Shown: positions 3,983 to 28,567 of the stretch, piece by piece | Layout: each line of letters opens with the position of its first letter | Numbering within the stretch: position 1 is the first letter of the stretch | DNA from: a virus | Strand: one strand, 5' to 3' | Length of the DNA: 29,676 nt | IMG/VR virus record: IMGVR_UViG_3300027906_002511 | Coordinates: 1 to 29,676 of that record | Program-made: the position numbers and the translations under genes | Notes under the pieces: generated by a model | What the model was told of the DNA's origin: nothing | Database searches by the model: none | The model's input: the letters and a program-made list of their open reading frames with translations, nothing else

Positions 3983-4744
3983 ATGAAGAAGTTAACTTTA
4001 GAAAATGATTTCAATATAAGAATGAATCTGGGTATTGACTATAAATCAATGACAGGATGGTGTGTTGAAAACGAAAATCATCCAGCACTATCCCATCAAG
4101 AGGATGGTATACAAGTACCAAACCAATTTAGTGATACTCTTAGATCATATGTAAGGGGTGCAACTGAGGGATCAAATCCAGATGAACATGATTGTATCGA
4201 TGATGAACAATCAAAAGAAATTCAATTCTACCAAACATATAATCCATTTACTTTTGGAATACCTTGTTTTGCAGACTTGTATTGGGCATTGAACAAGTTC
4301 TTTTATGAACATGATCAAGTCAAAGAGGCTGGAGAACCATATTACATACATGGGTGGTTTAATGTTTATCATTCAAAGGTGGGTGAAGAGGGTTACGATC
4401 ATATTCCGTGGCACAGGCATTTACATACTTTACATCCTCATATCTATCATGGATTTTATTGTGCAAATGTACAACCATCTGAAACTTGGTATCGATACTC
4501 TGCCCAATCACCAGAAGAAGATATCGTTAAGATTCCAGACTATGATGATATGTTAATCTTCTCTCAGAGTGGATATGAACATTGTTCATCTGCATGGAAG
4601 GGTGAAGTTCCACGAGTAACAGTTGCATTTGATATTATGCCAGAATCAGTCTATCTTGGACTCCAAGAGATAGGAGATTCAGATTATCATTGGAGTTTAG
4701 ATAGTAAACAATACCAAGCAATACCATTTCCATATTTACCATGA
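3983..4744 (+). CDS. Putative Fe(II)/2-oxoglutarate-type oxygenase, 253 aa
   Basis: The C-terminal half looks like a double-stranded beta-helix oxygenase: IPWHRHLH supplies H144-x-H146, then GYEHCSSAW gives a distal His (H200), then VPRVTVAFDI gives Arg211, 11 residues after the distal His as in the other oxygenases here. The first metal motif is HxH rather than the commoner HxD. The start is uncertain: ATG 3983 follows the upstream stop by 1 nt, while ATG 3950 would add 11 residues; neither has a good ribosome binding site. The gene ends in an ATGA overlap with the methyltransferase, so it may belong to the modification block. The substrate is unknown. Confidence 0.55.
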   Translation: MKKLTLENDFNIRMNLGIDYKSMTGWCVENENHPALSHQEDGIQVPNQFSDTLRSYVRGATEGSNPDEHDCIDDEQSKEIQFYQTYNPFTFGIPCFADLYWALNKFFYEHDQVKEAGEPYYIHGWFNVYHSKVGEEGYDHIPWHRHLHTLHPHIYHGFYCANVQPSETWYRYSAQSPEEDIVKIPDYDDMLIFSQSGYEHCSSAWKGEVPRVTVAFDIMPESVYLGLQEIGDSDYHWSLDSKQYQAIPFPYLP

Positions 4745-6006
4745 GATATTTTCAATACACATTAAAAGATTTAGAAACCAATTCTGCAAGGAAAGAATTT
4801 AATTACATTACATTCTTTGCTGGTGGTGGTGGAAGTTCTTGTGCATATAAACTCTCTGGTGGTGATGTGAGGTATATGAATGAATTTCAACAGGTACATG
4901 TTGATACTTATCTTGCAAACTTCCCAAATACAGTTCATGAATGTAAAGACATTAAACAAGTGACTGGTAAAGATATATTAGAAATGACTGGACTCAAGAA
5001 AGGTGAATTAGATATTATGGATGGTTCACCACCATGTCCACCATTCTCAGTTGCTGGAACTAAACGAGAAGGTTGGGGAAAAGAGAAAGTTGCATATGGA
5101 ATGAAACAACAAAACATAGAAGACCTTACATGGGAAATGATTAGGATTGCAGAAGAAGTAATGCCTAAAGTTATCGTATGTGAAAATGTAAAAGGTCTAT
5201 CAATGGACTATGCAAGAGATCATCTTATTAGGATGATAACAGATTTTGAAAAACTTGGGTACTCAGTGACTTGGAAAGTTATGAAAGGACATGAACATGG
5301 AGTACCTCAGAAAAGAGAAAGGGTATTCATGGTTGGTGTTCGTGATGATGTACTAGATGCAATTGGATTACCTTTTATGTGTTTAAGTGGATTGTTTCCA
5401 GAGGCAAGTGATGAAAGAATATCAATAGGTGAAGCAATAGATGATCTAATGCACGATGAAGAGAATATCTTTGTTGGTGCTGATCTTGAGACTGAAATGT
5501 TAAAATCATCTAAAGCACATTGGATAACTGGATTTGAAAAACATCCAGACCCAGACCTTGCACATTGTGGCCCATGTGAAGGATTAGACCCAGTTCTAAA
5601 AAGGAAATCTAATGCAGCCTATATATCTATAGGTGATGATATTGTTGGGCCATGGTTTCAAGAACAAGTCAAGAATGGTCATGTAAAACCAGAAGATGCA
5701 AAACATTCTTATTACATGTCAAGGATTGTTCCAAAAACTCTTCCAGCACATTCATTAACTGAACAGGGTTGTCAACCAAAGTTTATGGGTGGTAATCATT
5801 TTCATTACAATGGTAGGAGAATATACACACCAAGAGAAATGGTAAGGTTAATGACTCTACCAAACGATTATAAAATGACTGGAGACATTAACGAGAAAGG
5901 TGCAAGGATAGGTTTAATGGTTGCACCATTGTGTCTACATTATCTAGTAGAACAAATAAAAGAACAGGTATTAACGCCATGGAATTTACTGCAAGAAAAG
6001 ACTTAG
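4741..6006 (+). CDS. DNA (cytosine-C5) methyltransferase, 421 aa
   Basis: Transfers a methyl group from S-adenosylmethionine to C5 of cytosine in DNA. Motif I is TFFAGGGGSS, motif IV is GSPPCPPFSVAG with catalytic Cys99, motif VI is ENVKGL, motif VIII is QKRERVFMVGVR, and a motif IX/X-like C-terminus includes YTPREMVRLMTLP. The domain set appears complete. No restriction endonuclease lies next to it. The following gene is a TET/JBP-like dioxygenase overlapping by 28 nt, so the probable role is the first step of phage DNA hypermodification rather than a restriction partner. The start at 4741 overlaps the upstream stop. Confidence 0.93.
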   Translation: MRYFQYTLKDLETNSARKEFNYITFFAGGGGSSCAYKLSGGDVRYMNEFQQVHVDTYLANFPNTVHECKDIKQVTGKDILEMTGLKKGELDIMDGSPPCPPFSVAGTKREGWGKEKVAYGMKQQNIEDLTWEMIRIAEEVMPKVIVCENVKGLSMDYARDHLIRMITDFEKLGYSVTWKVMKGHEHGVPQKRERVFMVGVRDDVLDAIGLPFMCLSGLFPEASDERISIGEAIDDLMHDEENIFVGADLETEMLKSSKAHWITGFEKHPDPDLAHCGPCEGLDPVLKRKSNAAYISIGDDIVGPWFQEQVKNGHVKPEDAKHSYYMSRIVPKTLPAHSLTEQGCQPKFMGGNHFHYNGRRIYTPREMVRLMTLPNDYKMTGDINEKGARIGLMVAPLCLHYLVEQIKEQVLTPWNLLQEKT

Positions 6007-6980
6007 GTAAAAAAGAAACTCACGAAGGATTTAATGGTCAGTGGTTAGGGACATCTTCATATGATGATGTAGTTAGTTCTATAGGAGTTGATGAAGAGAT
6101 CATAAAGATTTATAAACCTTTTGCATCACTGGGAGAGAAACCTCTCCTTGCATGTATTGTTAAAGGTCTGTATAAGGGTGACACATATAAAGAAGTTAAA
6201 GATACTTTAATGTCTATCGATGATACTTCTACCATGAGAGCAAATGCATCAGGGCCTATCGACCATAAAGAAATGGAAGATAAGGGTTTGGTTGAAGGTA
6301 AAGATTACAAACTCAGAACAAAGAATTCCTATTATCCACTGAAAAAGAATGGACAGTGGAACATGATTGCAGAAGCAAATGCAATTCATTCAGTCTTTGC
6401 TGGTTATAAACGAGGTAGATTCACAGGTATGATAGGATTATCTAACTGGTGTGAGAAGAAATCTAATGTAGATAAGTGGGAAAAGATGAAAAAGATTGCA
6501 CAGGTTAATGAGATTGCACTTAAAAAAGGTTGTCCAGATATCTGGAAACTACAAAGAACATATGCAGATGAATGTATTGATGAACAATATCAATTAGGTG
6601 GAGCTCCAATTACAACTCTATCTGCAAACAAATATACTACTGGTGGAACTCAAAAGATGTCTGCACATGTAGATGGTAAAGATTTAGAATTTGGTATGAC
6701 TACAATGTGTGTTTTCAGAGAAGGTAATTTTGGTGGGGCATACTTATGTTTCCCAAGATATGGAATTGCCATTGAGGCAGATGATGGTGATGTGCTGATT
6801 GCAGATTCAAATGAGATACATGGAGTCACTCCTATCACTGGAGAAGGTATAAGGTTATCTTGTGTTGCATATTGTTCAACTGATGTTGCAACTAAAGGTA
6901 GAGGTGGTAAACCAGAAAAACCTATTGGTCAACATGCAAACAAAAAACAGAATAGAGGAACATTAGGAGACTTCTTATGA
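5979..6980 (+). CDS. TET/JBP-like Fe(II)/2OG dioxygenase, probable 5-methylcytosine hydroxylase
   Basis: The 333-residue product carries a TET/JBP-type oxygenase core: H230-V-D232 metal motif (SAHVDGKD), GGAYLCFPRYGIAI, GDVLIADSNEIHGV with the distal ligand H281, and R292 (IRLSCVAYC) for 2-oxoglutarate binding. The N-terminal ~190 residues are family-specific. The start ATG at 5979 is chosen because the longer reading (from 5931) extends deep into the methyltransferase without a ribosome binding site. Phage TETs oxidise 5mC to 5hmC, and the overlap with a C5-methyltransferase and downstream sugar enzymes fits that role. Oxidation state and sequence preference cannot be read from sequence. Confidence 0.85.
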   Translation: MEFTARKDLGKKETHEGFNGQWLGTSSYDDVVSSIGVDEEIIKIYKPFASLGEKPLLACIVKGLYKGDTYKEVKDTLMSIDDTSTMRANASGPIDHKEMEDKGLVEGKDYKLRTKNSYYPLKKNGQWNMIAEANAIHSVFAGYKRGRFTGMIGLSNWCEKKSNVDKWEKMKKIAQVNEIALKKGCPDIWKLQRTYADECIDEQYQLGGAPITTLSANKYTTGGTQKMSAHVDGKDLEFGMTTMCVFREGNFGGAYLCFPRYGIAIEADDGDVLIADSNEIHGVTPITGEGIRLSCVAYCSTDVATKGRGGKPEKPIGQHANKKQNRGTLGDFL

Positions 6981-7681
6981 AAATAGTAATTACAGGTTCT
7001 AGGGGATTTATAGGAACATACTTACTAAGTGCTTTAGATAAACATGAAATTGTAGAATGGGATAGAAAATTAGATAGGGATATAAAAAATTTCTACCTTG
7101 AAGGTGATGAAGATTTTGTTATTCATCTTGCTGGATTAATCTCACCAAGAGATTCTATTAATGAACCACATGATTACTGGTTGCAAAATGTAGAATACAG
7201 TAAAAAACTATTTGATGTATGTAAAGATGTTCCAATGGTTTATGCTTCAAGTGCAGCTGCAAAAGAATATTGGAGAAGTCCATATGGAACAACTAAAAAA
7301 GTTTTAGAAACACTTGCACATAAAGGTCATGTTGGATTAAGATTTGAAAGTATCTATGGTGATGGTGCATCAGACATAGGATTAATAACTAGAATCAAAA
7401 ATGGAACTATTAAGTATCATACAAATCATATAAGAGACTTTGTTCATATAGATGATATCATAAATTCTATCTTATTGTTTATAGAACAAGGAACACGAGA
7501 TAAACTACCATATTATGAAGTTGGAACTGGTAAAGAACATTTAGTTTCAGATGTAGTAAAACATTTCGGAGTAGATGTTCCAGAAAAAGAAGGGGACAAT
7601 ATTGAAATATTTCGTAGTGTTGCAGACACAACAGAAATAGAAAAGTTAGGTTGGAAAGCGGAGAAGAGTGTTTATGATTGA
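6977..7681 (+). CDS. NAD(P)-dependent epimerase/dehydratase (extended SDR), 234 aa
   Basis: Rossmann nucleotide-binding motif GSRGFIG at residues 7-13 (GxxGxxG), a VIHLAGLIS strand, catalytic-type SSAAA and Y103-x3-K107 (YGTTK), and HIRDFVHIDDI typical of sugar-nucleotide epimerases. It is shorter than most GalE-like enzymes (~310 aa). It overlaps the TET gene by 4 nt (ATGA) and the glycosyltransferase by 8 nt. The inferred job is to prepare a nucleotide sugar for the glycosyltransferase that follows; the substrate is not visible. Confidence 0.85.
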   Translation: MKIVITGSRGFIGTYLLSALDKHEIVEWDRKLDRDIKNFYLEGDEDFVIHLAGLISPRDSINEPHDYWLQNVEYSKKLFDVCKDVPMVYASSAAAKEYWRSPYGTTKKVLETLAHKGHVGLRFESIYGDGASDIGLITRIKNGTIKYHTNHIRDFVHIDDIINSILLFIEQGTRDKLPYYEVGTGKEHLVSDVVKHFGVDVPEKEGDNIEIFRSVADTTEIEKLGWKAEKSVYD

Positions 7682-8492
7682 TTTAGTTATATGTACATTT
7701 AAGAGATTGGATAAACAGATTACTCTGGGAAATATTCCAGAGAAGTTTAGAGATAATGTAACTCTTGTAGTCCAACCACAAGAGGAAGAAGAAGCAAAAA
7801 AAGTTCATTCTAATATATTTGTTCTTAATGGGGATAATATTGGATATGCAAAAACTATCGAACAGACAACAAAAGAATTTGCAGTAAATCGTAATAATCA
7901 TTTTTGGTTGTTTGATGATGATTTAACTTTTAGATTCAATGAGGAAATAGAAGTAGGGGTCAAGGGAAAGAAACATAAATTTACAGAACAACATTTTGAA
8001 CAAATGTTAATAGAAATTGAAAAAGAATTAGACTCTGGAATGATGCATGGTGCATTAGGAACAACTTGGGTATTTCCTTGGGGCAAACTTCCATATGTTG
8101 AAAACAGTAGAATGTGTGGAAATAAAATCTACAATAAAGACCTTGCAAAAGTCTGGAACGATATTGACTGGGTTGGATGTTGTGGTGCAGAAGATTTCTT
8201 TGTAAACATACAATTATTAACTATGGGATATTCAAACAAGGTATGGTATAATTATGTTATTGATCCCGGCCACAGTTATCAAGATGGTGGTTGTTCTGAT
8301 TATAGAGATTTAGAATACCACAATAAAGCATGTAAAGACCTTGCAGAATTATATCCACAGTTTACTAGACTTAAAACTAATATTCAAAAGTCTGGGCCTT
8401 GGAAGGGTGTAGAAAAATTAGGAGTTCATGTGCAATGGAAAAAAGCATATGAATCATCAAAGGTCTCGACAATAACAGATTTTATGGTATAA
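7674..8492 (+). CDS. GT-A-type glycosyltransferase, TET-associated (TAGT-like), 272 aa
   Basis: The start MIDLVICTFKR is typical of nucleotide-sugar-binding GT-A folds. The metal-binding acidic motif is FDDD (D81-D83) in NHFWLFDDDLTF. A central block GALGTTWVFPWG, then CCGAEDFFVNIQLLTMGY, completes a compact transferase. Proteins of this size and layout next to phage TET genes have been described as TET/JBP-associated glycosyltransferases (TAGT). Context suggests it adds a sugar to the 5-hydroxymethylcytosine made by the two enzymes upstream. The ATG at 7674 is preferred over GTG 7668. Sugar identity and family membership need a profile search. Confidence 0.8.
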   Translation: MIDLVICTFKRLDKQITLGNIPEKFRDNVTLVVQPQEEEEAKKVHSNIFVLNGDNIGYAKTIEQTTKEFAVNRNNHFWLFDDDLTFRFNEEIEVGVKGKKHKFTEQHFEQMLIEIEKELDSGMMHGALGTTWVFPWGKLPYVENSRMCGNKIYNKDLAKVWNDIDWVGCCGAEDFFVNIQLLTMGYSNKVWYNYVIDPGHSYQDGGCSDYRDLEYHNKACKDLAELYPQFTRLKTNIQKSGPWKGVEKLGVHVQWKKAYESSKVSTITDFMV

Positions 8493-8493
8493 T
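8466..8493 (+). promoter_or_regulatory. Promoter upstream of the 56-aa gene, gp62 and regA
   Basis: TCGACA (8466-8471), a 16-nt spacer and TATAAT (8488-8493). The -35 has one mismatch from TTGACA and the spacer lacks the clear dyad of its relatives. The predicted +1 at 8500 is the A of the next ATG. It lies at the end of the glycosyltransferase gene and would separate gp62/regA expression from the modification block. Confidence 0.7.
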
Positions 8494-8499
8494 AGATAT

Positions 8500-8670
8500 A
8501 TGAACTCAACAAACGAAAACATTCTTCAAATTATTCAATCATTTAAACTTCTTAATCCAGAGGATCAAGAAGTAGTTTTAAAGACTTTACAGAATGTAAA
8601 GACAGATTCAAATCATTTTAAAAAAGATATTGATTCTTATCGTGCAAAGTTAGTAAGGTCTACTAAGTAA
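8500..8670 (+). CDS. Small protein, 56 aa, preceding gp62
   Basis: The ATG at 8500 coincides with the predicted transcription start, and no ribosome binding site precedes it, so leaderless translation is expected. The 56-residue product is polar and helical (NENILQIIQSFKLLNPED...). Its TAA shares a base with the gp62 ATG (TAATG at 8668-8672), making coupled translation likely. No family recognised. Confidence 0.65.
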   Translation: MNSTNENILQIIQSFKLLNPEDQEVVLKTLQNVKTDSNHFKKDIDSYRAKLVRSTK

Positions 8671-9047
8671 TGAACCCATTTGATTATGTCAATGCATTGA
8701 CCTTCACTAAGAAGGACATTATGGTTGACAGACAAGCAGAACGAGAGTACGCTCCCTTTATCACAAACAGGACACTTTCGTACCACCAAGATTGCATCAT
8801 GTATGCAAACGAAATAAATCGTAGACACCACCTAGATTCTCGTCTACAATTCCATTATTTCCTAAATACTCTAAGAAAACGAAAAAGGTTTGCCAAATGG
8901 ATCAAACCAAATGTTTTGGAAGATATGAAGGTTATCCAATCATATTATGGATGTTCTAAATCTAAGGCAGAAGAATACTTAAATATTCTTTCTTCTGAAC
9001 AGATTGTAGAACTTAATGAGAGAATGAAAAAAGGTGGGAGACAATAA
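8670..9047 (+). CDS. 62: Clamp loader small subunit gp62
   Basis: Non-ATPase subunit that joins the gp44 tetramer in the clamp loader. The 125 residues match the short gp62 form I associate with marine T4-like phages: MNPFDYVNALTFTKKDIM at the start, CIMYANEINRRHHLDSRLQF in the middle, and RKRKRFAKWIKP, which parallels the RGKRYGKWAK segment of T4 gp62. T4 gp62 is longer (187 aa). RegA follows after 3 nt, as gp62-regA does in T4, but gp44 is separated by the modification block. Confidence 0.88.
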   Translation: MNPFDYVNALTFTKKDIMVDRQAEREYAPFITNRTLSYHQDCIMYANEINRRHHLDSRLQFHYFLNTLRKRKRFAKWIKPNVLEDMKVIQSYYGCSKSKAEEYLNILSSEQIVELNERMKKGGRQ

Positions 9048-10390: not shown

Positions 10391-10729
10391 ATGTATATGT
10401 TACTCATCCTCGCACTCAAGAGTATTCTCTCGACAGTTATAGGTTCAACATTTTACAAATGGTTCCAGTCAACTAAGGTTGGAGTTTGGTTTCAGCTTAA
10501 GGTGAACAAATTCATGGAATATTTGTCAACTAAATATGATATAGAGATTACCAAGAAAGACGCAAAGTGGAGACAAGATTATCCATTACTTGCAGATAGG
10601 GTCGATAAACTAGAATCTATGGCACATCCTAAATGTGGATTAGATGGTTTCGATGGTTATCAACCTCTTGTTAATCGAATTGAAAAACTTGAACAGGAAC
10701 TTAAAAATGTCAAAAAAGGAAAAACCTAA
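10391..10729 (+). CDS. Membrane-anchored coiled-coil protein, 112 aa
   Basis: An N-terminal hydrophobic segment (about residues 2-22, MLLILALKSILSTVIGS) is followed by a basic region and a C-terminal heptad-like stretch (PLVNRIEKLEQELKNVKK). The ATG is 5 nt after the lipase stop and has AGAGG just upstream. It overlaps the COQ4-like gene by 23 nt. No family recognised; a membrane scaffold is possible. Confidence 0.6.
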   Translation: MYMLLILALKSILSTVIGSTFYKWFQSTKVGVWFQLKVNKFMEYLSTKYDIEITKKDAKWRQDYPLLADRVDKLESMAHPKCGLDGFDGYQPLVNRIEKLEQELKNVKKGKT

Positions 10730-11723
10730 TCATTATGTCGTTGGAAGATGGACTTCTAACTGGCACCAACTTAAACTATTTCTAACAGTCTTATTCAAAA
10801 GACTAGATACTTCAAAGAACGAATCTCAACACGAATTTGGTGATGCAGTCACAATGTTCTTTGGTATTGGAGAACAACAAGGTCGTGGAATTGCATTCAA
10901 ATGGGCAACTGCACAACCACCTCAGGCAAAAAATATTACTGATGGTCATTGGTATGCAGATACAGAACTGTTAGAAGATTTCGATGCATTAAAAAAGTAT
11001 AAGAAGAATACACTTGGTAAACGATATCAAGAATTTTTTCAATACTACAACGATTACATGAATAAGAAGTTGGGTATTAATAAATGGATACCACAAGTAT
11101 CAATGCATAGGAGATCCGCAGAGATGTTAGAAGCAGACCAAAGAAAATCTTTCTTAGGTCAAACTGCAAATGAAAAGAATACCAAGTCCTTTGATAATAA
11201 AAAGGATGACCCATTGAATATTGGATTGAACCCTGCTGTTGTAAACTACTATCTTACATCACCTACAGTACATCCTCATATGAAAAGAGATGTACAAAGA
11301 CTGGGAATGATGAAGGCAGTTAGGAAAAGAATGGGAGATCGTTTCTTTGGAATCCATGATTTATATCATGTACTACTTGGAGTTGGTAGAGACCAACTTG
11401 GAGAGATGTGTATTCAATGTAAGAATGCTGTTGACTCTGGATTGTATGGATTACATCTAGTGACATGGTTAGAAGCATGTAGAGAAGCAGTAATACATTT
11501 ATCATTAACTCCATTCAAAATTAGAAAAGAAGCATATAGACTTGCAAAACTATCAGAGGATTTATTAGTTCAAGACTATAAAAAACTATTAAAGGTTGAT
11601 GTTGATAAGATTCGTAAAGACCTCAACATACAAGAAAACAAAATCTATCAAGACTTTTGTGGGGTGACTCACGAGAATGATTTACCAAAAGGTAAGTATA
11701 GAGTAGGAGAATATGGTATTTAA
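10707..11723 (+). CDS. COQ4-like protein with HDxxH-x11-E motif, 338 aa
   Basis: The C-terminal half contains GIHDLYHVLLGVGRDQLGE, which gives H217-D218-x2-H221-x11-E233, the exact zinc-binding signature of COQ4, a protein required for ubiquinone biosynthesis. Total length (338) is close to yeast Coq4 (335). Surrounding residues (RFFGIHDLYH, then QCKNAVDSGLYG) also follow the family pattern, and the N-terminal ~150 residues are less recognisable. The ATG at 10707 is chosen over an upstream extension because it overlaps the previous gene only slightly. A role in host quinone metabolism is inferred from the motif alone. Confidence 0.7.
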   Translation: MSKKEKPNHYVVGRWTSNWHQLKLFLTVLFKRLDTSKNESQHEFGDAVTMFFGIGEQQGRGIAFKWATAQPPQAKNITDGHWYADTELLEDFDALKKYKKNTLGKRYQEFFQYYNDYMNKKLGINKWIPQVSMHRRSAEMLEADQRKSFLGQTANEKNTKSFDNKKDDPLNIGLNPAVVNYYLTSPTVHPHMKRDVQRLGMMKAVRKRMGDRFFGIHDLYHVLLGVGRDQLGEMCIQCKNAVDSGLYGLHLVTWLEACREAVIHLSLTPFKIRKEAYRLAKLSEDLLVQDYKKLLKVDVDKIRKDLNIQENKIYQDFCGVTHENDLPKGKYRVGEYGI

Positions 11724-12219: not shown

Positions 12220-12250
12220 AAACCCACAGGAATGTGGGTTTTTTTTTTGA
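12220..12250 (+). terminator. Strong rho-independent terminator
   Basis: A 9-bp perfect stem AAACCCACA/TGTGGGTTT (12220-12228 with 12233-12241) closed by a GGAA tetraloop and running into an unbroken T tract to 12248. It ends the 11772-12135 transcript and insulates it from the late promoter at 12280. The rest of the 12136-12308 gap holds only an ORF that reads through this terminator. Confidence 0.93.
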
Positions 12251-12279: not shown

Positions 12280-12287
12280 TATAAATA
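12280..12287 (+). promoter_or_regulatory. T4-type late promoter TATAAATA before the curli block
   Basis: An exact TATAAATA octamer 22 nt before the ATG at 12309, which has its own AGGAG site at 12299-12303. It lies directly downstream of the terminator at 12220-12250 and would start a transcript covering the small membrane proteins, csgF, csgG, the curlin-like genes and the cyclase. Confidence 0.7.
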
Positions 12288-12308: not shown

Positions 12309-12623
12309 ATGGACTTTGTACAATTTCTGAGTGATGTGGGAGTCCCAATTGGCGGTGCAGTAGTCATGGGGTTCTTTATATTTTTAGTATTAAAACAGAT
12401 ACTAGATGGACTGGTGGATACAATAAAAACCCTTACTGGGTTTGCAAAAATGCTTGAAGATCGTGCCCGAGTGGGTTGTAATGAGTTAGTTAAGATTGAC
12501 TTGTTGGTTTCGTCTGCATTAGAACTTACTCCACCAATTGATAGGATTGCTCGTGCAGAGAATTACAGGACTAATGAGAAAGGTGAACCTCAGAATGTCA
12601 AACTTGATGTGAGGAGAGACTAA
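12309..12623 (+). CDS. Small membrane protein with helical tail, 104 aa
   Basis: A short N-terminal segment is followed by one membrane span (about residues 12-32, VPIGGAVVMGFFIFLVLKQIL) and an amphipathic helical region. The layout matches the next gene product (same length, span in the same place, FPxVM/IGGAVVM-like start), so the two look like diverged paralogues. The topology also recalls small BhlA/UviB holin-like proteins. It opens the late transcript that contains the curli genes. The AGGAG site and ATG are clear. Confidence 0.6.
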   Translation: MDFVQFLSDVGVPIGGAVVMGFFIFLVLKQILDGLVDTIKTLTGFAKMLEDRARVGCNELVKIDLLVSSALELTPPIDRIARAENYRTNEKGEPQNVKLDVRRD

Positions 12624-12937
12624 TGGAAGAATTAGCAGCTGCTATATCAGAATTTGGTTTCCCAGTGGTCATGGCTGGTGGGATGGGGTATTTTATATAC
12701 TTTGTATGGAAGTTTGTTGTAGACAAATTAGAACCAGAGTTAGACACTATGCACCTTGCACTTATAAAGTGTATTGATGCAAATAGAATGTTAGATAATG
12801 ACATGATAAGACTCCAACAGAAAGTGCAAGTGGTCTTGGAGTATCGAGAAAGACAGAACATGTTGGAAGATGCAGAAGAAAAAGAGGCACTAGCAGAGGT
12901 AAGAAAGAATGAAAAGAAAGGAAAAAATCCTAAGTAG
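12623..12937 (+). CDS. Small membrane protein with coiled-coil tail, 104 aa
   Basis: The ATG shares its A with the preceding TAA. One membrane span (about residues 11-30, FGFPVVMAGGMGYFIYFVW) is followed by a heptad-rich tail (MLDNDMIRLQQKVQVVLEY) ending in a Lys/Glu-rich segment. This is the one-span-plus-coiled-coil layout of BhlA/UviB-type holin-like proteins, but sequence identity to them is not evident by eye. Its last 29 nt overlap the csgF start, and the csgF ribosome binding site lies inside it. Confidence 0.6.
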   Translation: MEELAAAISEFGFPVVMAGGMGYFIYFVWKFVVDKLEPELDTMHLALIKCIDANRMLDNDMIRLQQKVQVVLEYRERQNMLEDAEEKEALAEVRKNEKKGKNPK

Positions 12938-13415
12938 TATATTCATATTAGTTGTTTTATTTTTACATGCATCTAATGTGTATTCAGACGAGATAGTACA
13001 TAAGTTCAAATCTCCAAGTTTTAGTGGAGTAGGAACTTCTGCACATTATCTTACAATCGATTCACAAGAACAGGGTCGAAGAGAGGCAATCAAGTCAGAT
13101 ATAGAAGCTGCACTATTGGCTGCAAAGAGAGAAGAAGATAACAGTACACTTGCTAAATTTATTAGAAATCTGGAGAGCAGAATTTATTCCCAACTTTCTA
13201 AACAATTAGTTGAGTCACTATTCTCTGGAGATGGTGCATCATTTGGTAGTTTCATGTTAGAAGGTAGTACAATAACATACCAAGTACAACCTTGTGATAA
13301 TCCAGCTGCATGTACTGTAGGTGAAGATGTAATTGTAATGACAATTACAGCTGAGGACGGAACAGTCACCTCTATAACTATTCCAATAGGAAGTGGAAAC
13401 TGGGGAACTGGTTAG
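12909..13415 (+). CDS. csgF: CsgF-like curli assembly factor, 168 aa
   Basis: Secreted accessory protein of the curli (type VIII) secretion pore; in E. coli CsgF binds the outer face of CsgG and couples secretion to nucleation. A signal peptide (about residues 1-25, ending VYS|DE) precedes the family's N-terminal motif HKFKSPSFSGVGTSA and the helix LESRIYSQLSKQLVESLF, followed by a beta-rich C-terminal domain with a Cys pair (CDNPAAC). E. coli CsgF is 138 aa. GAGGT lies 9-13 nt before the ATG. csgG follows directly, as in bacterial csg operons. Confidence 0.88.
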   Translation: MKRKEKILSSIFILVVLFLHASNVYSDEIVHKFKSPSFSGVGTSAHYLTIDSQEQGRREAIKSDIEAALLAAKREEDNSTLAKFIRNLESRIYSQLSKQLVESLFSGDGASFGSFMLEGSTITYQVQPCDNPAACTVGEDVIVMTITAEDGTVTSITIPIGSGNWGTG

Positions 13416-14399
13416 GTGAATGTTAAACTTTTATCGTCATTAGCACTATTAGTCATCCTTACAACAGGGTGTGCTAGTATTCCCAGCACAAGAGATTCAT
13501 GCACCAAAATAGTCATGAAAGAATTCGGAATCTGCGTGGAAGAACCAGTAAGTTTGGAATTACCCACACACGAGAAATTAAAACAATTACCACCAGCGGA
13601 AAAACAACCAGTAGTTGCAGTCTATTCATTCTTGGATAAGACTGGTCAGAGGAAACAGAAAGATGGTGCTGCTCTCTTTTCTACAGCAGTAACACAAGGT
13701 GCAGAAACAATGTTAATAGATGCATTGAAAACTGCTGGAGATGGGACATGGTTTAGAGTAGTTGAGAGAGTTGGTATAGATCACTTAACTAGAGAAAGAC
13801 AAATTGTAAAATCAACCAGACAGTCATTGGAAGAACCTACAGGGTTAGCTCCTTTGTTGTTTGCTGGGATGATTTTAGAGGGTGGTATCGTAGGCTTCGA
13901 TACGAACCTAGAGACAGGCGGTAGGGGTGCAAGAACATTAGGTGTTGGTGCTCAGAACGCATATAGAAAGGATGTTGTCACAATATCCCTTCGAGCAGTT
14001 AGTACATTGACTGGAGAAATATTACTTAATGTACAGACAACTAAATCGATTTTGGCAGTCGCAAGCGGTTATGATGTCTTTAAATTTATCGATATGGATA
14101 CTCAACTAATTGAGGTTGAGGATGGAATGACTGAGAATGAAAGTGTAACCAGAAGTGTTCGATCTGCGATTGAACAAGCTGTTTACGAATTAATTCTTCA
14201 AGGTGAGGAGAGAGATTTTTGGAAAATCAGTTGGGCAATACCAGAAAGTAAGATTAAAGAAGGTATTAACGAAATTATGGAAGATGTAGAAATTGAAGTA
14301 ATTACCGAAGAAGATATAATAGAAGTTGATCCACCAGATGAGTTACCATTAGGTATCCCAAATGTGGATGAAAAAACCCTCGAAGAAATACGAGGATAG
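13416..14399 (+). CDS. csgG: CsgG-like outer-membrane curli secretion channel, 327 aa
   Basis: Outer-membrane lipoprotein that forms the nonameric curli export pore. A GTG start directly after the csgF stop gives a lipoprotein signal ending in LTTGC (Cys19). The CsgG domain aligns by eye with E. coli CsgG: VAVYSFLDKTGQ, FSTAVTQGAETMLIDALK, ILEGGIVGFDTN, GGRGARTLGVGA, LRAVSTLTGEILLNVQTTKSI, FIDMDTQLIEVEDG. At the pore constriction only the Phe is kept (F88, E. coli F56); the Tyr51 and Asn55 positions read Asp and Leu. An acidic tail of ~50 residues extends beyond E. coli CsgG. Confidence 0.95.
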   Translation: MNVKLLSSLALLVILTTGCASIPSTRDSCTKIVMKEFGICVEEPVSLELPTHEKLKQLPPAEKQPVVAVYSFLDKTGQRKQKDGAALFSTAVTQGAETMLIDALKTAGDGTWFRVVERVGIDHLTRERQIVKSTRQSLEEPTGLAPLLFAGMILEGGIVGFDTNLETGGRGARTLGVGAQNAYRKDVVTISLRAVSTLTGEILLNVQTTKSILAVASGYDVFKFIDMDTQLIEVEDGMTENESVTRSVRSAIEQAVYELILQGEERDFWKISWAIPESKIKEGINEIMEDVEIEVITEEDIIEVDPPDELPLGIPNVDEKTLEEIRG

Positions 14400-14409
14400 A
14401 GGATAAGAA

Positions 14410-15135
14410 ATGAATAACTTCAAAAAAATAGTTATGATGTTATTATTGAGTCCTATGGCAGTGTTTGGTGCAGTCACAACAGATAATGAAATTGCTTTAC
14501 AGCAAGTTGGTGATACCCTAACACTTACAATTGACCAAATCGGATATGGCAACAAGTTGGGTGGTACAATATCATCTGGAGTTGTTGGAAGTGATTGGAT
14601 ATTAACAGGTACAAGTTTAAATGTTAATATTGATATGATCGGAAACAGCAACCAAATCTTCGGGCCAACCATCTTAGATAGTTCTACATTATCAGTCACA
14701 ATGACTGGTTCTAGTAATATCTGGGATTGGACTGTTGGTGCTTCTGGAAGTGCAGATTCAAGTAATTTACTTGCTGCTATAACTGGTTCATCAAACACAT
14801 TCGATATCGATTGGGGTGCAGCTGCATCTGCTGAAAGGTTAGATATGGATTTAGATATTATTGGAAGTTCCAATGTATTTACAATCGATTGGGAGTCAGA
14901 TGATATTGACTGGAATGTTGACATTACAGGTGATTCAAATGATGTTTTAACTCACATATCTGATGGTGCTTACCATGAATTTAAACTAGATCACACTGGA
15001 GACAGTGGAAACATTGACATTATAATGTCAAGTGGAACATGTTCTGGAATATCTTCGTGTAAGTCTACTATTGATATAGACTCGACAAGTGATAATGCTA
15101 CAATTACAATTAATCAAAAAGATACTGGGGATTAA
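14410..15135 (+). CDS. Secreted curlin-like repeat protein 1, 241 aa
   Basis: A Sec signal peptide (MNNFKKIVMMLLLSPMAVFG|A) precedes imperfect repeats carrying a G-x-S-N turn between beta strands (DQIGYGNKL, DMIGNSNQI, TGSSNIW, TGSSNTF, IGSSNVF, TGDSNDV), about seven in all, with alternating hydrophobic residues. This resembles curlin repeats of bacterial amyloids but is richer in Asp and poorer in Gln. A Cys pair lies near the C-terminus. It is encoded 10 nt after csgG with a GAGGAT site, so it is the likely substrate of the CsgG/CsgF pore. Amyloid formation is inferred. Confidence 0.75.
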   Translation: MNNFKKIVMMLLLSPMAVFGAVTTDNEIALQQVGDTLTLTIDQIGYGNKLGGTISSGVVGSDWILTGTSLNVNIDMIGNSNQIFGPTILDSSTLSVTMTGSSNIWDWTVGASGSADSSNLLAAITGSSNTFDIDWGAAASAERLDMDLDIIGSSNVFTIDWESDDIDWNVDITGDSNDVLTHISDGAYHEFKLDHTGDSGNIDIIMSSGTCSGISSCKSTIDIDSTSDNATITINQKDTGD

Positions 15136-16255
15136 TCTCCTTCTACTATCTTTTGGTTCTTTCGTATATGCAGACTCCATAATAGGAGACATCACTGAAC
15201 ATAAAGGTAGTGGGGGATTAACCAGACAATCTGGGGAATCCCTAACTACTGCTGTGGATGTAGATATCGAGTCGTTAGACCATATCGAGACTGCAAATGG
15301 TAGGATGAAGATAAAGTTTGTTGATGATACAAACCTATCTTTAACTGAGCATACAGAAGTTACGATAGACGAATATTATTTTGATCCAAATCCATCAAAG
15401 TCAAAGATGACAATGAGATTTGTATCTGGAACTGCAAGGTTCTCTACTGGTAAATTGGGATTAGTTCCTAGAGAGAATATTGTAATTCAAACTCCAACTG
15501 CAACCATTGGTGTGCGTGGAACAGATTTCACAACCACAGTGGATGAATTGGGAAGAAGCTTAGTGTTGTTGCTACCAGACGGCAAGTGTGAGTTTCCAAT
15601 TTTGGGTGAATGTAAACCAAGTGGTGAAATTACAGTAACAAATGAAGGTGGAACTGTAAGTTTAACTGAGGCATATCAAGCAACTATGGTTGCAAGTATT
15701 GCTACACCACCAATTCAACCCATAGTAATGGATAACATAAATGTATCCATGATAAACAATATGTTTATCGTAAGTCCACCTCAAAAGATTGTTGATGCAC
15801 AAGAAGAACAATCTGATAGTGGAGATTCTTCTCAAGTTAGTTTATTAGACTTTACTGATTTAGATTTTGATGCACTAGAAGAAGATTGGGAAGGTGAAGA
15901 CGATTTAGAATTTACAGAACTCGATATTGATCTCCTCGATGTCGATTTCTTACAAGATGTGTTGGTCACACTAGAGGCAATCGATGTTTTAAGTCGATCG
16001 CGAGGTGGTGGTGGTGGAGATCAAGGGGACATTGTTGGTACAACTGTAGGGTTTGATAAAGAGACCCAGTACAATACCATCATTGATCAAGGTGCTGGAG
16101 AAATCTGGTTCTATAGAGAGGTCAATGGTGTGATAAGTATCAGAATACCAATAACGACACAATTAACATTGGACAGTGAAAATGAAGGGAAGAAAAATAC
16201 TATTATTGTTGGGGATGGTCAGTCTGTTCTCATCACAATCCGTCAGAGCGGGTGA
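15095..16255 (+). CDS. FecR-domain secreted protein with acidic C-terminal region, 386 aa
   Basis: A signal peptide (MLQLQLIKKILGINLLLLSFGSFVYA|D) is followed by a FecR-type domain over residues ~30-150: VDIESLDHIETANGRMKIKF, DDTNLSLTEHTEVTIDEY, FVSGTARFSTGK, then the signature TPTATIGVRGTDFT. The C-terminal half is highly acidic (DFTDLDFDALEEDWEGEDD), with a Gly run at GGGGG. FecR domains in periplasmic or surface proteins are commonly encoded next to CHASE2-cyclase genes, as here. The signal peptide region overlaps the previous gene by 41 nt; ATG 15095 is preferred over GTG 15089. Role unknown. Confidence 0.8.
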   Translation: MLQLQLIKKILGINLLLLSFGSFVYADSIIGDITEHKGSGGLTRQSGESLTTAVDVDIESLDHIETANGRMKIKFVDDTNLSLTEHTEVTIDEYYFDPNPSKSKMTMRFVSGTARFSTGKLGLVPRENIVIQTPTATIGVRGTDFTTTVDELGRSLVLLLPDGKCEFPILGECKPSGEITVTNEGGTVSLTEAYQATMVASIATPPIQPIVMDNINVSMINNMFIVSPPQKIVDAQEEQSDSGDSSQVSLLDFTDLDFDALEEDWEGEDDLEFTELDIDLLDVDFLQDVLVTLEAIDVLSRSRGGGGGDQGDIVGTTVGFDKETQYNTIIDQGAGEIWFYREVNGVISIRIPITTQLTLDSENEGKKNTIIVGDGQSVLITIRQSG

Positions 16256-16991
16256 TAACGAAATAAAGATTGAACAATTATCATCAGATGGTGATAATTT
16301 AGTTCTTTTAATAGATCAGATCGGACATGACAATACAGTCGATTTTACTATAGATCATGCCTCTAATGAGATTGAAATAAAACAGACAGGTCAAAACAAT
16401 ATCATTTCTTATGTCTCTTACTGGGGTTCTGGTAAGAATTGGGGTGGAGATTTAGATGGGTCTGGTAATGACCTATACTTTGAACAATTAAATACTTTAG
16501 GTTCAGAAACAAATAGAATTGGATTCCACATTCCAGGCGATAACAATACACTTAAAATAGGACAAGGTTGTACTTTCAATAGTATGGCTGATGTTTCATG
16601 TGGTGATAACTCATCATCAGAATATGGTGGTCATACATCAAATATAGATATCCATTCAGACAATGTGACTATAAAAGGTGGTCAACAAACAGGATCAGGC
16701 AGTGCAGAACATGATGCAAAAGCATACTTCTATGGTGCAGATAATTCTTCTTTCTTCTATAGACAAATGGGTAATGGAGATAAGACACTAACATATGTTA
16801 CCTACCAAGACAATAGTGAGGGAACAGTCCACCAACGAGGAGATGGTGATCATACTGCAACAATAACATTAACTGGATCACAACCTACCACTTTAAACCT
16901 AAATCAAAATTCATCAACCAACCAGACATATTCACTATCACAAAATTGTCAGACCTCTGGTGGGTGTTCAGTCACAGTAACGCAGAACTAA
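16182..16991 (+). CDS. Secreted curlin-like repeat protein 2, 269 aa
   Basis: The ATG at 16182 encodes a signal peptide (MKGRKILLLLGMVSLFSSQSVRA|G) lying entirely inside the 3' end of the FecR gene (74-nt overlap). The mature part has curlin-type motifs: IDQIGHDNTVD, IKQTGQNNIIS, HIPGDNNTLKIGQ, YRQMGNGDKT, VHQRGDGDHTATI, LNLNQNSSTNQ. It ends in the Cys-pair segment NCQTSGGCSVTVTQN. Compared with the first curlin-like protein it is richer in Gln/Asn and closer to the classical I-x-Q-x-G-x-x-N pattern. It is probably a second exported fibre subunit or nucleator, in a role like CsgB versus CsgA. Confidence 0.8.
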   Translation: MKGRKILLLLGMVSLFSSQSVRAGDNEIKIEQLSSDGDNLVLLIDQIGHDNTVDFTIDHASNEIEIKQTGQNNIISYVSYWGSGKNWGGDLDGSGNDLYFEQLNTLGSETNRIGFHIPGDNNTLKIGQGCTFNSMADVSCGDNSSSEYGGHTSNIDIHSDNVTIKGGQQTGSGSAEHDAKAYFYGADNSSFFYRQMGNGDKTLTYVTYQDNSEGTVHQRGDGDHTATITLTGSQPTTLNLNQNSSTNQTYSLSQNCQTSGGCSVTVTQN

Positions 16992-18878
16992 ATGGGTAAA
17001 TTCCTAACATCCTTCTGGATGGTCATTTTAGTTCTAGGTGGATTAACAACTCTTAGAATTGCAGACCCAGAGCCAATACAAAAGTTGCGAAATATAAATT
17101 TCGATTACTACCTTACATCTAAAGAAACTACCACTTCAAGTGACATTGTACTACTTGATGTTGCAGAAAGTAGTTTAGAACTCAAAGGTCAATATCCATT
17201 TCCCAGAACAGAATGGGCTCAAATGATTTCAGATTTAAGAAATGCAAATGCTGGAATGATTGGATTTACAGTAATGTATCCAGAAATTGATAGGTTTGGG
17301 GGTGATGAGGTTTTCGTCTCGTGGGTTAATGGTAATGGTATCATTTTATCCCAGACTTCATCACCTAAAGGTAGGAGTGATATTGCACCATTTGTAGGAA
17401 CTGCCGTCTTAGGGGATGGAGACCCATATAATTTTGCATATGAATATCAAGGTGTAGTCACTAACATTCCAAAACTAGAAGAAGCTGCATGGGGTGTTGG
17501 TATGTTAAATTCTGCACCAGAGGTGGATGGAATCGTAAGACGAATACCTTTAGTCACTCAAGTTAATAATCAATTATATCCAAGTTTCCCTATGGAAGTT
17601 ATTCGTGCAACTCAACAGAATAAAGGATACACCATGAAGGTAGAACCTTCTGGGATAGAGAATTTTAGAATACCACCTTATGAACCAGTGGTGACAGATG
17701 AAACTGGTAGTTTATATGTAGACTGGTCTAAGTCTTTTCCTCGACATGAGTACGGGCAACCACTTCCCAATCTTGAGGGACGAACAGTGATTGTTGGTTT
17801 GACAGCAGAGGGCATAGTTCCCATTGTTTCGAGTCCGATGGGTGGGGTGTATCCTCATGATATTCAGGCATCTGCGATTCAGACAATATTGGATGGGGTC
17901 TCCATTTCTCGTCCTTATTGGGGTTCCCTTCTGGAAATAGTTTTAACTCTAATTGGGTCTCTGGTCTTGGTATTTTCGATTTATCGATTCTCCGTTTTAA
18001 CATCTGCACTCGTCTCCGGCCTTGTCGTTGCTGGTGTAGGTTTCTTGCCCTTGTTCTTCTGGACTTCATCAAGTTTCCTTATTGATTTAACATTCCCAAT
18101 TATAACACTAATACTCATATTTAGTCAATCGAGTTTTAATAACTTCTATGTACAGTTCAAATTAAGACAACAAATTAAAGGTCAGTTTGGTACTTACCTA
18201 TCACCAGACATGGTAGACATGCTGGTCAAAGACCCATCATTAATGAAACTAGGTGGGGATAGAAAAGAGATGACATTCTTATTCGCAGACATTGTAGGGT
18301 TCACTCCTATAAGCGAGTCTTATATGAAGAGGGATGATCCAGAAGGTTTAGTAGAACTTATCAATATGTTCTTAGATAGAATGACAAAGGTTATTCTCAA
18401 AAATGGTGGAACCATCGACAAGTATATGGGCGATTGTATCATGGCTTTCTGGAATGCTCCTCTACCATGTGAAGATCATGCAACTTTAGCGGTTAAAACT
18501 GCAATGGAAATAGAATTACTTACGGAACAAATGAATAAAGAGATTAAAGAGTCTGGATTAGAATTACCACCAGTGGTTATTGGTACAGGTATTAATACTG
18601 GCCCATGTATCGTAGGAAATATGGGAAGTGAATCCAGATTTGATTATTCAGTGGTCGGCGATGCTGTGAATCTGGGTGCTAGATTAGAAGTACAAACTAG
18701 GACATATGATACACCTATCCTACTATCTGAATACACTTACATGCAATCTGATGTACCTTGTAAAGAACTTGACACTATTAAGGTAAAGGGTAAGGATGAA
18801 CCAGTTAAAATATTTGCACCATTGTTTGAAATGCCTTTTGGGAATAGAAAAGAAGTACGGAAGTTAATTAAAACTTGA
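16992..18878 (+). CDS. CHASE2-domain class III adenylate cyclase, 628 aa
   Basis: Converts ATP to cAMP. Layout: one N-terminal membrane segment (about 5-23), an extracytoplasmic CHASE2 sensor region (about 30-310), three membrane spans (about 315-400), then a complete class III cyclase domain (about 420-610). Catalytic residues are intact: metal-binding D433 (LFADIVGFT) and D481 (DKYMGD), adenine-selecting K477, and N560/R564 in SVVGDAVNLGARLE; Ser553 sits where Thr or Asp is usual. The ATG follows the upstream stop directly, so it closes the curli operon. A membrane-embedded, apparently active cyclase is rare in a phage. Confidence 0.92.
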   Translation: MGKFLTSFWMVILVLGGLTTLRIADPEPIQKLRNINFDYYLTSKETTTSSDIVLLDVAESSLELKGQYPFPRTEWAQMISDLRNANAGMIGFTVMYPEIDRFGGDEVFVSWVNGNGIILSQTSSPKGRSDIAPFVGTAVLGDGDPYNFAYEYQGVVTNIPKLEEAAWGVGMLNSAPEVDGIVRRIPLVTQVNNQLYPSFPMEVIRATQQNKGYTMKVEPSGIENFRIPPYEPVVTDETGSLYVDWSKSFPRHEYGQPLPNLEGRTVIVGLTAEGIVPIVSSPMGGVYPHDIQASAIQTILDGVSISRPYWGSLLEIVLTLIGSLVLVFSIYRFSVLTSALVSGLVVAGVGFLPLFFWTSSSFLIDLTFPIITLILIFSQSSFNNFYVQFKLRQQIKGQFGTYLSPDMVDMLVKDPSLMKLGGDRKEMTFLFADIVGFTPISESYMKRDDPEGLVELINMFLDRMTKVILKNGGTIDKYMGDCIMAFWNAPLPCEDHATLAVKTAMEIELLTEQMNKEIKESGLELPPVVIGTGINTGPCIVGNMGSESRFDYSVVGDAVNLGARLEVQTRTYDTPILLSEYTYMQSDVPCKELDTIKVKGKDEPVKIFAPLFEMPFGNRKEVRKLIKT

Positions 18879-19143: not shown

Positions 19144-19605
19144 ATGGTCAAATTAACGACTAATGATCTATTCGATCAAATGTGGAGAAGGTCTTCTCCA
19201 TACACAATAGGGTTTGATAACATCTTTGAAGATTTAAAGTTTGTATCAAACAATCAACAACCCTCATATCCACCTTACAATATCGTAAAGAAAAGTGATG
19301 AACTATTCTTAATCGAAATTGCAGTGGCAGGATTCGGAGAAGATGATCTGGATATCGAAGTTCAAGAAAACGAACTTAGAGTGACAGGTGAGATTCTCGA
19401 TGAAGAGGAATCAGATGAAAATATCCATAAAGGTATTGCAAATAGAAAATTCAGAAGAATCTTCAAACTTGCAGAAGACCTTGTGGTTAATTCTCCATCA
19501 TTAAAGAATGGAATGCTAAGTATTCCATGTGAGAGGATAATACCAGAGGAAAAGAAAGCAAGAAAACTAGAGATAGTAGATACTGCTGAATTTTTATCAG
19601 AATAA
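19144..19605 (+). CDS. hsp20: Small heat-shock protein Hsp20 (IbpA-like), 153 aa
   Basis: ATP-independent holdase chaperone; an Hsp20 gene is a regular component of marine T4-like phages. The alpha-crystallin domain spans about residues 38-142: YPPYNIVKKSDELFLIEIAVAGF, the variable loop DEEESDE, the arginine strand FRRIFKLAEDLVV, then SPSLKNGMLSIPCERIIPEE with the NGML turn. The N-terminus (FDQMWRRSSPYTIGFDNIF) is typical of the IbpA class. A strong AGGAGG site lies 7-12 nt upstream. It follows a leader with two hairpins and precedes a class I promoter. Confidence 0.93.
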   Translation: MVKLTTNDLFDQMWRRSSPYTIGFDNIFEDLKFVSNNQQPSYPPYNIVKKSDELFLIEIAVAGFGEDDLDIEVQENELRVTGEILDEEESDENIHKGIANRKFRRIFKLAEDLVVNSPSLKNGMLSIPCERIIPEEKKARKLEIVDTAEFLSE

Positions 19606-20920: not shown

Positions 20921-21226
20921 ATGAATCTCCCAGATTACAAAATTGTTGTTAATCAACAAGGCGAACAGGGAATTGAAATTTGTGAAGGGAATTATACAGG
21001 GGTTGTTTTCACCTATGGTAAGGTTGAATTCATACCTAAAGAGGAATCAGAACAACCCAGTATAAATTTTAGTCGTGCTGTCAGAGCATGTCCAGAAGAA
21101 CTTAGAGAATCCATATCAGAGGATAAAGAATTTAATCAACTGATGGGAGATATTCTAGTCCAACTATTAGAACAGGAAGGCGATAACGCCGTGGAACTAT
21201 TAAGAGATGAATCTACAGAAACTTAA
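20921..21226 (+). CDS. Acidic hypothetical protein, 101 aa
   Basis: A beta-rich start (YKIVVNQQGEQGIEICEG, GVVFTYGKVEFIP) leads into an acidic helical C-terminal half (DKEFNQLMGDILVQLLEQEGD). ATG directly after the preceding stop; its end overlaps the lysozyme gene by 20 nt. No family recognised; its place in the cassette supports a real gene. Confidence 0.65.
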   Translation: MNLPDYKIVVNQQGEQGIEICEGNYTGVVFTYGKVEFIPKEESEQPSINFSRAVRACPEELRESISEDKEFNQLMGDILVQLLEQEGDNAVELLRDESTET

Positions 21227-21647
21227 AGAAGAAATCATAAGAGACGAAGGTGTCGTTTATGAAATTTATAAAGATCATTTGGGGTATCCTACATTTGGCA
21301 TAGGTCATTTAGTTAAGGATGGAGACCCAGAACAGGGACAAGAGGTTGGAACACCAGTATCAAAAGAAAGATGCGATGAAGTGTTTGAACATGATTGTGC
21401 AGAACACATACAAGAGTGTAAAAATTTATTTACAGAACTGGATTCATATCCAGATGATGTACAAAGAGTATTGGTCAATATGACCTTTAATATGGGAGTC
21501 ACAAGACTATCGAAGTTTAAAAACTTTGGAGCTGCAATAAGATCGAATGATTGGAAAAAGGCTGCAGTCGAAGGTCGTGATTCTCGTTGGTATAATCAAG
21601 TAACCAATCGTGCAGAACGATTAATGGTAATGTTAGAGAATATATAA
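21207..21647 (+). CDS. T4-type lysozyme (GH24 endolysin), 146 aa
   Basis: Peptidoglycan muramidase. The GH24 triad is placed as in T4 lysozyme: E14, D23 and T29 (E-x8-D-x5-T; T4 E11, D20, T26) within IIRDEGVVYEIYKDHLGYPT, followed by FGIGHLV and the C-terminal WYNQVTNRAERLMVML, matching the NRAER motif of the family. No signal peptide is visible, so release would need a holin; candidate small membrane proteins lie at 11977, 12309 and 12623. It could also serve as a virion enzyme. Confidence 0.93.
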   Translation: MNLQKLKEEIIRDEGVVYEIYKDHLGYPTFGIGHLVKDGDPEQGQEVGTPVSKERCDEVFEHDCAEHIQECKNLFTELDSYPDDVQRVLVNMTFNMGVTRLSKFKNFGAAIRSNDWKKAAVEGRDSRWYNQVTNRAERLMVMLENI

Positions 21648-28491: not shown

Positions 28492-28567
28492 GGGGCTGTA
28501 GCTCAGTAGGGAGAGCGACTGGTTTGCATCCAGTAGGTCGTAGGTTCGATTCCTATCAGCTCCACCA
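28492..28567 (+). tRNA. tRNA-Ala (UGC) with encoded CCA
   Basis: A complete cloverleaf: acceptor GGGGCTG/CAGCTCC (one G-U), D arm GCTC...GAGC, anticodon arm ACTGG-TTTGCAT-CCAGT with anticodon TGC, variable loop AGGTC, T arm GTAGG-TTCGATT-CCTAT, discriminator A and encoded CCA. It is transcribed with the upstream oxygenase gene and lies just before a class II promoter. It would supply Ala-GCA decoding. Confidence 0.97.

Follow-up and report, generated by a model that had tools for sequence, protein, structure and literature searches.

Gene content and conservation of the operon

We analysed IMG/VR virus record IMGVR_UViG_3300027906_002511 (29,676 bases, here called the window), which comes from a marine virus and bears T4-like genes, and within it a group of eight plus-strand genes at 12309-18878, closely packed or overlapping, that joins homologues of the curli secretion proteins to an FecR-domain protein and, as the last gene, a CHASE2 cyclase. 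The group opens with two small proteins of 104 aa, TM1 (12309-12623), with one N-terminal membrane helix, and TM2 (12623-12937), likewise a one-helix protein, both assigned to phrog_18771. They are followed by a CsgF homologue (12909-13415; Pfam CsgF, E 5.5e-11), with a signal-peptide-like N-terminus by hydropathy, and by a homologue of the outer-membrane pore CsgG (13416-14399; Pfam CsgG, E 5e-49), whose N-terminus looks, by eye, like that of a lipoprotein. Two genes for predicted curlin-like secreted proteins, Cur1 (14410-15135) and Cur2 (16182-16991), flank the gene of a putatively secreted FecR-domain protein (15095-16255 from an ATG, or from a GTG at 15089; Pfam FecR at residues 65-165, E 6.7e-13). 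The last gene (16992-18878) encodes a 628-aa CHASE2 class III (adenylate) cyclase with Pfam CHASE2 and Guanylate_cyc matches. The eight genes presumably share one transcript, and their content and order place the operon in the phage curli (type VIII secretion) module that is already known.

The original prediction, made from the sequence of the window, had placed the FecR protein and the cyclase in one operon with curli genes, and conservation bears this out. A cyclase scan of IMG/VR gave at least 597 relatives, the best 80 of which were used as loci; 44 include 5 kb or more of sequence upstream of the cyclase and were used for counts of gene order. CsgF, CsgG, FecR and cyclase lie on one strand in that order in all 44. 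By tblastn, CsgF, CsgG, Cur1 and FecR were found together in 43 (in the exception, L076, Cur1 is seen with a hidden Markov model), TM1 or TM2 is present in 43 (absent from L057) and Cur2 is matched in 30. The same genes accompany CsgG when it is the query: among the best 80 of 127 relatives in the CsgG scan (at least one contig is common to both scans), and counting only loci with enough DNA to show each gene, we found the small membrane gene in 52/52, CsgF in 64/64, a curlin-like gene in 78/78, FecR in 73/73 and the cyclase in 36/36. The cyclase had been said to follow the FecR gene; it does so within the operon, though not directly, because the second curlin-like gene (16182-16991) lies between them.

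Phage genes on both flanks of the module are common to the window and to two separately assembled contigs, L001 and L002, and from 8.7 kb onward the genes of the window are matched in related phage contigs, where their order is kept. All six module proteins tested (CsgF, CsgG, Cur1, FecR, Cur2 and the cyclase) are under purifying selection. The median ratio of non-synonymous to synonymous substitution rates (dN/dS) over independent close pairs was 0.094 for CsgG (36/36 pairs usable), 0.051 for the FecR domain (35/36), 0.083 for the cyclase domain and 0.082 for CHASE2 (41/44 each). The module is thus not a chance assemblage, because separate contigs share its flanks and six of its proteins are kept under selection.

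The curlin assignment comes from family relatives. Pfam Curlin_rpt matches 10 of 17 Cur1 family members (E up to 1, best 8.6e-6) and 18 of 32 Cur2 family members (E up to 1, best 2.9e-5), and the structural model of Cur2 is mostly beta. The accessory gate protein CsgE was not found in any of 10 phage records, 8 of them possibly fragments, with an E. coli control positive; CsgC, CsgD and CsgE are also reported absent from Alphaproteobacteria (PMC9599517). As a side observation, OR851715.1 (1,499 bp, labelled Salmonella phage) contains an unannotated CsgG match and may be bacterial DNA labelled as phage.

The small genes before csgF apparently correspond to the 'histidine kinase' described for this module in PMC9599517. 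Across loci these genes encode 82-116 aa; TM1 carries no Pfam kinase domain, nor does any of the 9 small proteins encoded before csgF that were scanned. HATPase_c, the kinase ATPase domain, was absent from 16 phage records, 14 of them possibly fragmentary contigs, with 14/14 controls positive. The negative records include L239, one of whose proteins shares 44% identity with the head-to-tail connecting protein of MW574966, a podophage from PMC9599517; that connecting protein had no match in the other 7 contigs tried. In MW574966 itself, of whose 59,769 bases 50,000 were covered, curli genes are not annotated. We therefore rejected a histidine kinase before csgF: these are one-helix proteins without a kinase domain, and HATPase_c is absent from the 16 records, most of them incomplete.

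A conserved late promoter

The sequence TATAAATA, which we take to be the T4 late promoter, lies on the plus strand at 12280-12287, 29 nt upstream of the TM1 start, and is preceded by an intrinsic-terminator-like hairpin (12220-12241, plus strand; 9 pairs and a T run). Neither element is unusual by number: the window has 5 TATAAATA sites against 3.7 expected (32 of 100 shuffles reach 5, not above chance), and the region 11-20 kb has 5 terminator-like sites against 4.4 in shuffles, which is not significant. The position of the promoter, in contrast, is conserved. Of 46 related loci, 34 carry TATAAATA in the 200 bp before the first operon gene, where chance would give 0.022 per 200 bp; these loci include the cultured phages Melnitz (promoter present) and HTVC008M (promoter absent). 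As a control, we counted the same sequence before internal genes of these loci, finding it before CsgF in 1/45, CsgG in 0/47, Cur1 in 1/51 and FecR in 0/51.

The CsgG-scan loci provide a second comparison. None of 59 has the late promoter before the operon, and none of 77 loci of at least 5 kb matches any of 16 T4-type marker proteins, against 45 of the 80 cyclase-scan loci; by these markers the CsgG-scan loci are a different phage group. The late expression that had been predicted is therefore supported, because the promoter position is conserved in 34/46 loci and is seen in 0/59 of the group without T4 genes. In T4-like phages, then, the operon appears to be expressed late as a unit that takes in the two small proteins. 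TATAAAT is named as the T4-like late promoter in PMC9004378.

The CHASE2 cyclase

Pfam assigns residues 21-325 of the cyclase to CHASE2 (E 5.1e-32) and residues 425-604 to Guanylate_cyc (E 6.5e-18, over the cut-off). By hydropathy we called four membrane spans, one (3-21) before CHASE2 and three (312-330, 339-357 and 360-378) after it. The expected CHASE2 sensor and intact-looking catalytic domain are thus present, with four spans rather than the three proposed, and a CHASE2 domain between the first span and the later three agrees with the predicted architecture of an envelope sensor. Sequence matches in the Protein Data Bank (PDB) are led by a bacteriophytochrome-adenylate cyclase (6fht) and CyaB (3r5g; E 1.8e-33).

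We take D433 and D481 to bind metal, K477 to contact the substrate, and N560 and R564 to stabilize the transition state, as in other class III cyclases. D433, K477, D481 and R564 are present in 83/83 viral cyclases and N560 in 82/83; at position 553, 80 have Ser, 2 have Thr and 1 has Asp. K477 together with S553 suggests ATP as the substrate, and the enzyme probably makes cyclic AMP (cAMP) late in infection. In a tree that after thinning held 43 of 135 viral and 40 of 80 bacterial rows, a branch with support 100 separates the viral cyclases from the 40 bacterial rows, so they may have a single origin. An alphaproteobacterial origin is reported from the trees in PMC9599517.

Twelve small alphaproteobacterial genomes were considered as possible SAR11 genomes and dropped, since their GC content (33-48%, for stretches of 11 of the 12) does not fit SAR11. 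A protein binding cyclic nucleotide monophosphates (cNMPs) is found in 6 of the 12 and a cyclase domain in 11; given the GC misfit we base no claim about a host receptor on them.

The FecR-domain protein

The FecR protein has a hydrophobic N-terminus (residues 1-19), followed by the FecR fold from about residue 30 to 205. In an AlphaFold model (mean pLDDT 74.5, pTM 0.48) confidence is high for the FecR domain and for a C-terminal beta domain whose end resembles a curlin strand, and low for the acidic linker between them. A PDB sequence search with the protein gave no meaningful match. Searched by fold, the model matched PupR (6ovk, Z 15.1), a putative anti-sigma factor (4m0n, Z 13.7) and 5ix9, a 'Cell surface anchoring domain' (74 of 76 residues, rmsd 2.4, Z 11.1), which we take to be the anchor at the N-terminus of an ice-binding adhesin of the RTX type. 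As PupR is itself a domain of an anti-sigma regulator, the fold does not separate an anchoring from an anti-sigma reading.

We rejected an iron-type FecR anti-sigma factor on other grounds, the fold alone giving no exclusion. The cytoplasmic N-terminal anti-sigma part is missing, because the export-type N-terminus is followed directly by the FecR domain and leaves no room for it.

The C-terminus of the FecR protein resembles the last strand of the curlin repeat. A hydrophobic-x-hydrophobic-x-Gln tail ends 135 of 136 phage FecR open reading frames (ORFs; 72 of 73 distinct tails), 49/53 Cur2 and 40/134 Cur1, but only 8 of the 1,107 unrelated ORFs that reach 150 aa or more. The ORFs of CsgF, CsgG, cyclase, TM1 and TM2 all lack it. 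The motif itself was defined with the sequences already in view. We regard a physical tie of the FecR protein to the fibre as a lead, not a result.

Bacterial relatives of the FecR-cyclase pair

The original prediction held that the FecR-cyclase pair also occurs in bacterial genomes, and this is true in part: in 27 of 73 bacterial cyclase loci with enough DNA, the ORF immediately before the cyclase, on the same strand, has an FecR domain. In 24 of these 27 the ORF encodes 907-3,080 aa. At the other loci, 7 have a giant ORF running off the available DNA and 3 a giant ORF without FecR. The loci are not independent, having been picked by their similarity to the phage cyclase and including many from Bradyrhizobium. 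RTX, cadherin or Ig-type domains were found in 3 of 7 bacterial FecR proteins scanned. Eight other upstream neighbours comprised 4 HlyD proteins of type I secretion, 1 cadherin/Ig giant, 1 aminotransferase and 2 proteins without a domain match. FecR has also been described with a CHASE2 adenylate cyclase in Campylobacterota (PMC9239204) and with a CHASE2-kinase in a Burkholderia biofilm operon (PMC5192318).

The combination with curli was not seen in bacteria. No curli genes were found in 80 bacterial cyclase loci (3.3-22 kb each), so the bacterial neighbourhoods with FecR, CHASE2 cyclase and curlin that had been proposed as a check did not turn up there. Conversely, CsgF occurs in 6 of 385 alphaproteobacterial genomes, and in the 5 curli loci examined (the weakest was omitted) neither FecR nor cyclase lies within about 10 kb. 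Among these 80 cyclase and 5 curli loci we saw none with curli, FecR and cyclase together.

Neighbouring genes

The clamp, clamp loader, DNA polymerase, UvsX and helicase of the window were named by eye from translations. It also encodes a DNA cytosine-5 methyltransferase (4741-6006; NCBIfam dcm, E 1.1e-43), a Coq4-like protein (10644-11723; Pfam E 4.8e-8) that is 40% identical in L001 and L002, an IbpA-like small heat-shock protein directly after the module (19144-19605), also seen in L001-L004, and a tRNA-Ala (tgc; 28492-28567). A lysozyme-like gene at 21207-21647, recognized by eye and weakly as an endolysin by NCBIfam (E 2.2e-5), starts 2.3 kb downstream of the cyclase. A lysozyme gene also starts about 1.2-1.5 kb before TM1 in L008, L009, L010, L013 and L037, a possible link to lysis. 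In L194 a 1,256-aa tail-tip-like protein (4964-8734; weak Ig_J_second, E 0.054) stands right before the curli module; this 53-kb contig has no match to the MW574966 connector or to the T4 markers, and the module may thus reach a third phage lineage.

Discussion

The gene content, order and conservation described above fit a model that we hold about evenly balanced between right and wrong, in which the operon encodes a fibre-coupled envelope sensor and the FecR protein reports fibre export to the CHASE2 cyclase. One T4-type late promoter would serve all eight genes, and late in infection CsgG and CsgF would export the curlin-like proteins. The FecR protein would be secreted as well, its N-terminal domain, of an anchoring or signalling fold, staying near the periplasm and its C-terminal beta tail joining or abutting the curlin chain. 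The CHASE2 domain would then read the FecR protein, and cAMP would report whether the fibre has been exported or attached, acting through a host receptor. The secretion routes, both contacts of the FecR protein (with CHASE2 and with curlin), the cAMP product and its receptor are steps that we infer.

We suggest further, and more tentatively, that FecR with a CHASE2 cyclase is a portable sensor of fibre state, which Alphaproteobacteria may use on giant adhesins and which marine phages may have moved onto curli by giving FecR a curlin-like tail. The FecR domain would then be the cell-side anchor of an exported surface fibre, read by CHASE2, and the infected cell would make cAMP late in answer to its own phage-encoded fibre.

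Several observations weigh against these proposals. The best fold match of the FecR model, PupR, is the signalling domain of an anti-sigma regulator. The profile of the FecR C-terminal domain is only weakly similar to Cur1 and Cur2 (P 0.008 and 0.004) and equally so to CsgF (0.006), and Curlin_rpt matches none of 35 FecR members. The curlin assignment itself has gaps, as Curlin_rpt does not match Cur1 and Cur2 of the window (E up to 1) and the Cur2 model has no PDB fold match under E 0.001. Extra late promoters stand before Cur2 (6/40) or the cyclase (6/74) in some relatives; in that minority of T4-like relatives Cur2 or the cyclase has a late promoter of its own. Melnitz, alone of 83, has Ser at N560, and its cyclase has a longer C-terminus (L082, 9998-12049). 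A cNMP-binding receptor is absent from 8 phage records (2 complete genomes and 6 possibly fragmentary contigs), and a host receptor would therefore be needed. No clumping of Melnitz-infected cells was seen by the authors of PMC9004378. Finally, in bacteria neither FecR nor a giant ORF is directly upstream in 36 of the 73 cyclase loci, 4 of the 7 FecR proteins scanned have FecR alone, and FecR is near none of 10 more distant cyclases in small alphaproteobacterial genomes.

The bacterial neighbours without FecR or a giant ORF, and the absence of FecR near the distant cyclases, also speak for the best surviving alternative, an active cyclase untied to the fibre. On this view CHASE2 makes it a general envelope sensor, by which the phage alters host physiology through cAMP, and it shares the operon for late timing only. 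Similar cyclases are indeed common, a cyclase profile being met in 245 of 385 alphaproteobacterial genomes with partial matches counted. We nevertheless consider this unlikely, because FecR and the cyclase accompany the phage curli genes in every locus long enough to show them, and in the same order in all 44 cyclase-scan loci.

Somewhat less probable still is that CsgG and CsgF form a lysis or release pore, pinholin- or secretin-like, with the rest of the operon timing lysis. A lysis pore was proposed for Melnitz (PMC9004378), and the closeness of a lysozyme gene to the module, here and elsewhere, the late operon and its opening with two small one-helix proteins would suit it. A pore of this kind, however, leaves two conserved curlin-like families, FecR and the cyclase unexplained.

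According to the discussion in PMC9599517, curli expression is governed by a FecR regulator of the iron type and a histidine kinase, jointly with cAMP. The match of the FecR model to the PupR signalling domain fits such a regulator, but the export N-terminus leaves no room for an anti-sigma part, the genes before csgF encode just 82-116 aa and HATPase_c is missing from all 16, mostly incomplete, phage records, and we think this improbable. We give even less credence to an inactive cyclase, a passenger or decayed gene: the presumed transition-state Asn is lost in Melnitz, but the catalytic positions are kept in 82 of 83 viral cyclases and the domain has a low dN/dS over 41 pairs. A chimeric assembly, which the bacterial-type genes inside a phage window might suggest and which had been named as what could undo the original prediction, is excluded in practice and has a negligible probability, because L001 and L002 share the phage genes of the window on both sides, and the module is present in cultured HTVC008M and Melnitz.

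The role of the module has been read variously in three phage papers, as an amyloid fibre, an uptake pore or a means of timing lysis. With the late promoter, the reassignment of the 'kinase' and the link from FecR to anchored adhesins, the module becomes a pathway open to test, in which a fibre would be exported, sensed in the periplasm and answered with cAMP. If this holds, the phage equips its host, which reportedly lacks curli genes, with a circuit that signals from the surface to the cytoplasm.

The original prediction knew of no described phage system of this kind, and in this it was wrong, because PMC9599517 (2022) and the records of HTVC008M and Melnitz show the module. PMC9599517 describes a csgF-csgG-curlin-FecR-curlin-cyclase module in pelagiphages, both podo- and myophages, and reports it from each of the 65 ocean stations in a global virome survey; csgF and csgG in phages are also treated in PMC7029224 and PMC9004378, with ideas of sibling capture, an uptake pore and a lysis pore. 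The type VIII secretion module of PMC9599517 has the order seen in the window (CsgF, CsgG, curlin-like, FecR, second curlin-like, cyclase). Its FecR is read there as an iron-dependent regulator and its first gene or genes as a histidine kinase, unlike here, and the words 'CHASE2' and 'promoter' are absent from the text of that paper. Pelagibacter phage HTVC008M (gp014-gp019) and Methylophilales phage Melnitz (genes 99-104) have the gene order of the window, and their records annotate the cyclase, which is 43% and 34% identical, respectively, to that of the window over 97% of its length; in both, however, the module lies in another neighbourhood, before tail and baseplate genes.

Among bacteria, the alphaproteobacterial loci share with the phages the pairing of the CHASE2 cyclase with an FecR gene, there directly upstream, and differ in that FecR is mostly part of giant ORFs, some with RTX or cadherin domains and some beside HlyD, with no curli seen. 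The Campylobacterota cluster of PMC9239204 likewise has a CHASE2 adenylate cyclase and an FecR-domain envelope protein, together with a TPR protein and a phosphodiesterase; curli genes go unmentioned in that account. Set beside these systems, what is new here is the conserved late promoter, the small membrane proteins before csgF, an FecR protein without the anti-sigma part and with a curlin-like end, the link between FecR and adhesins, and how the parts seem to fit together.

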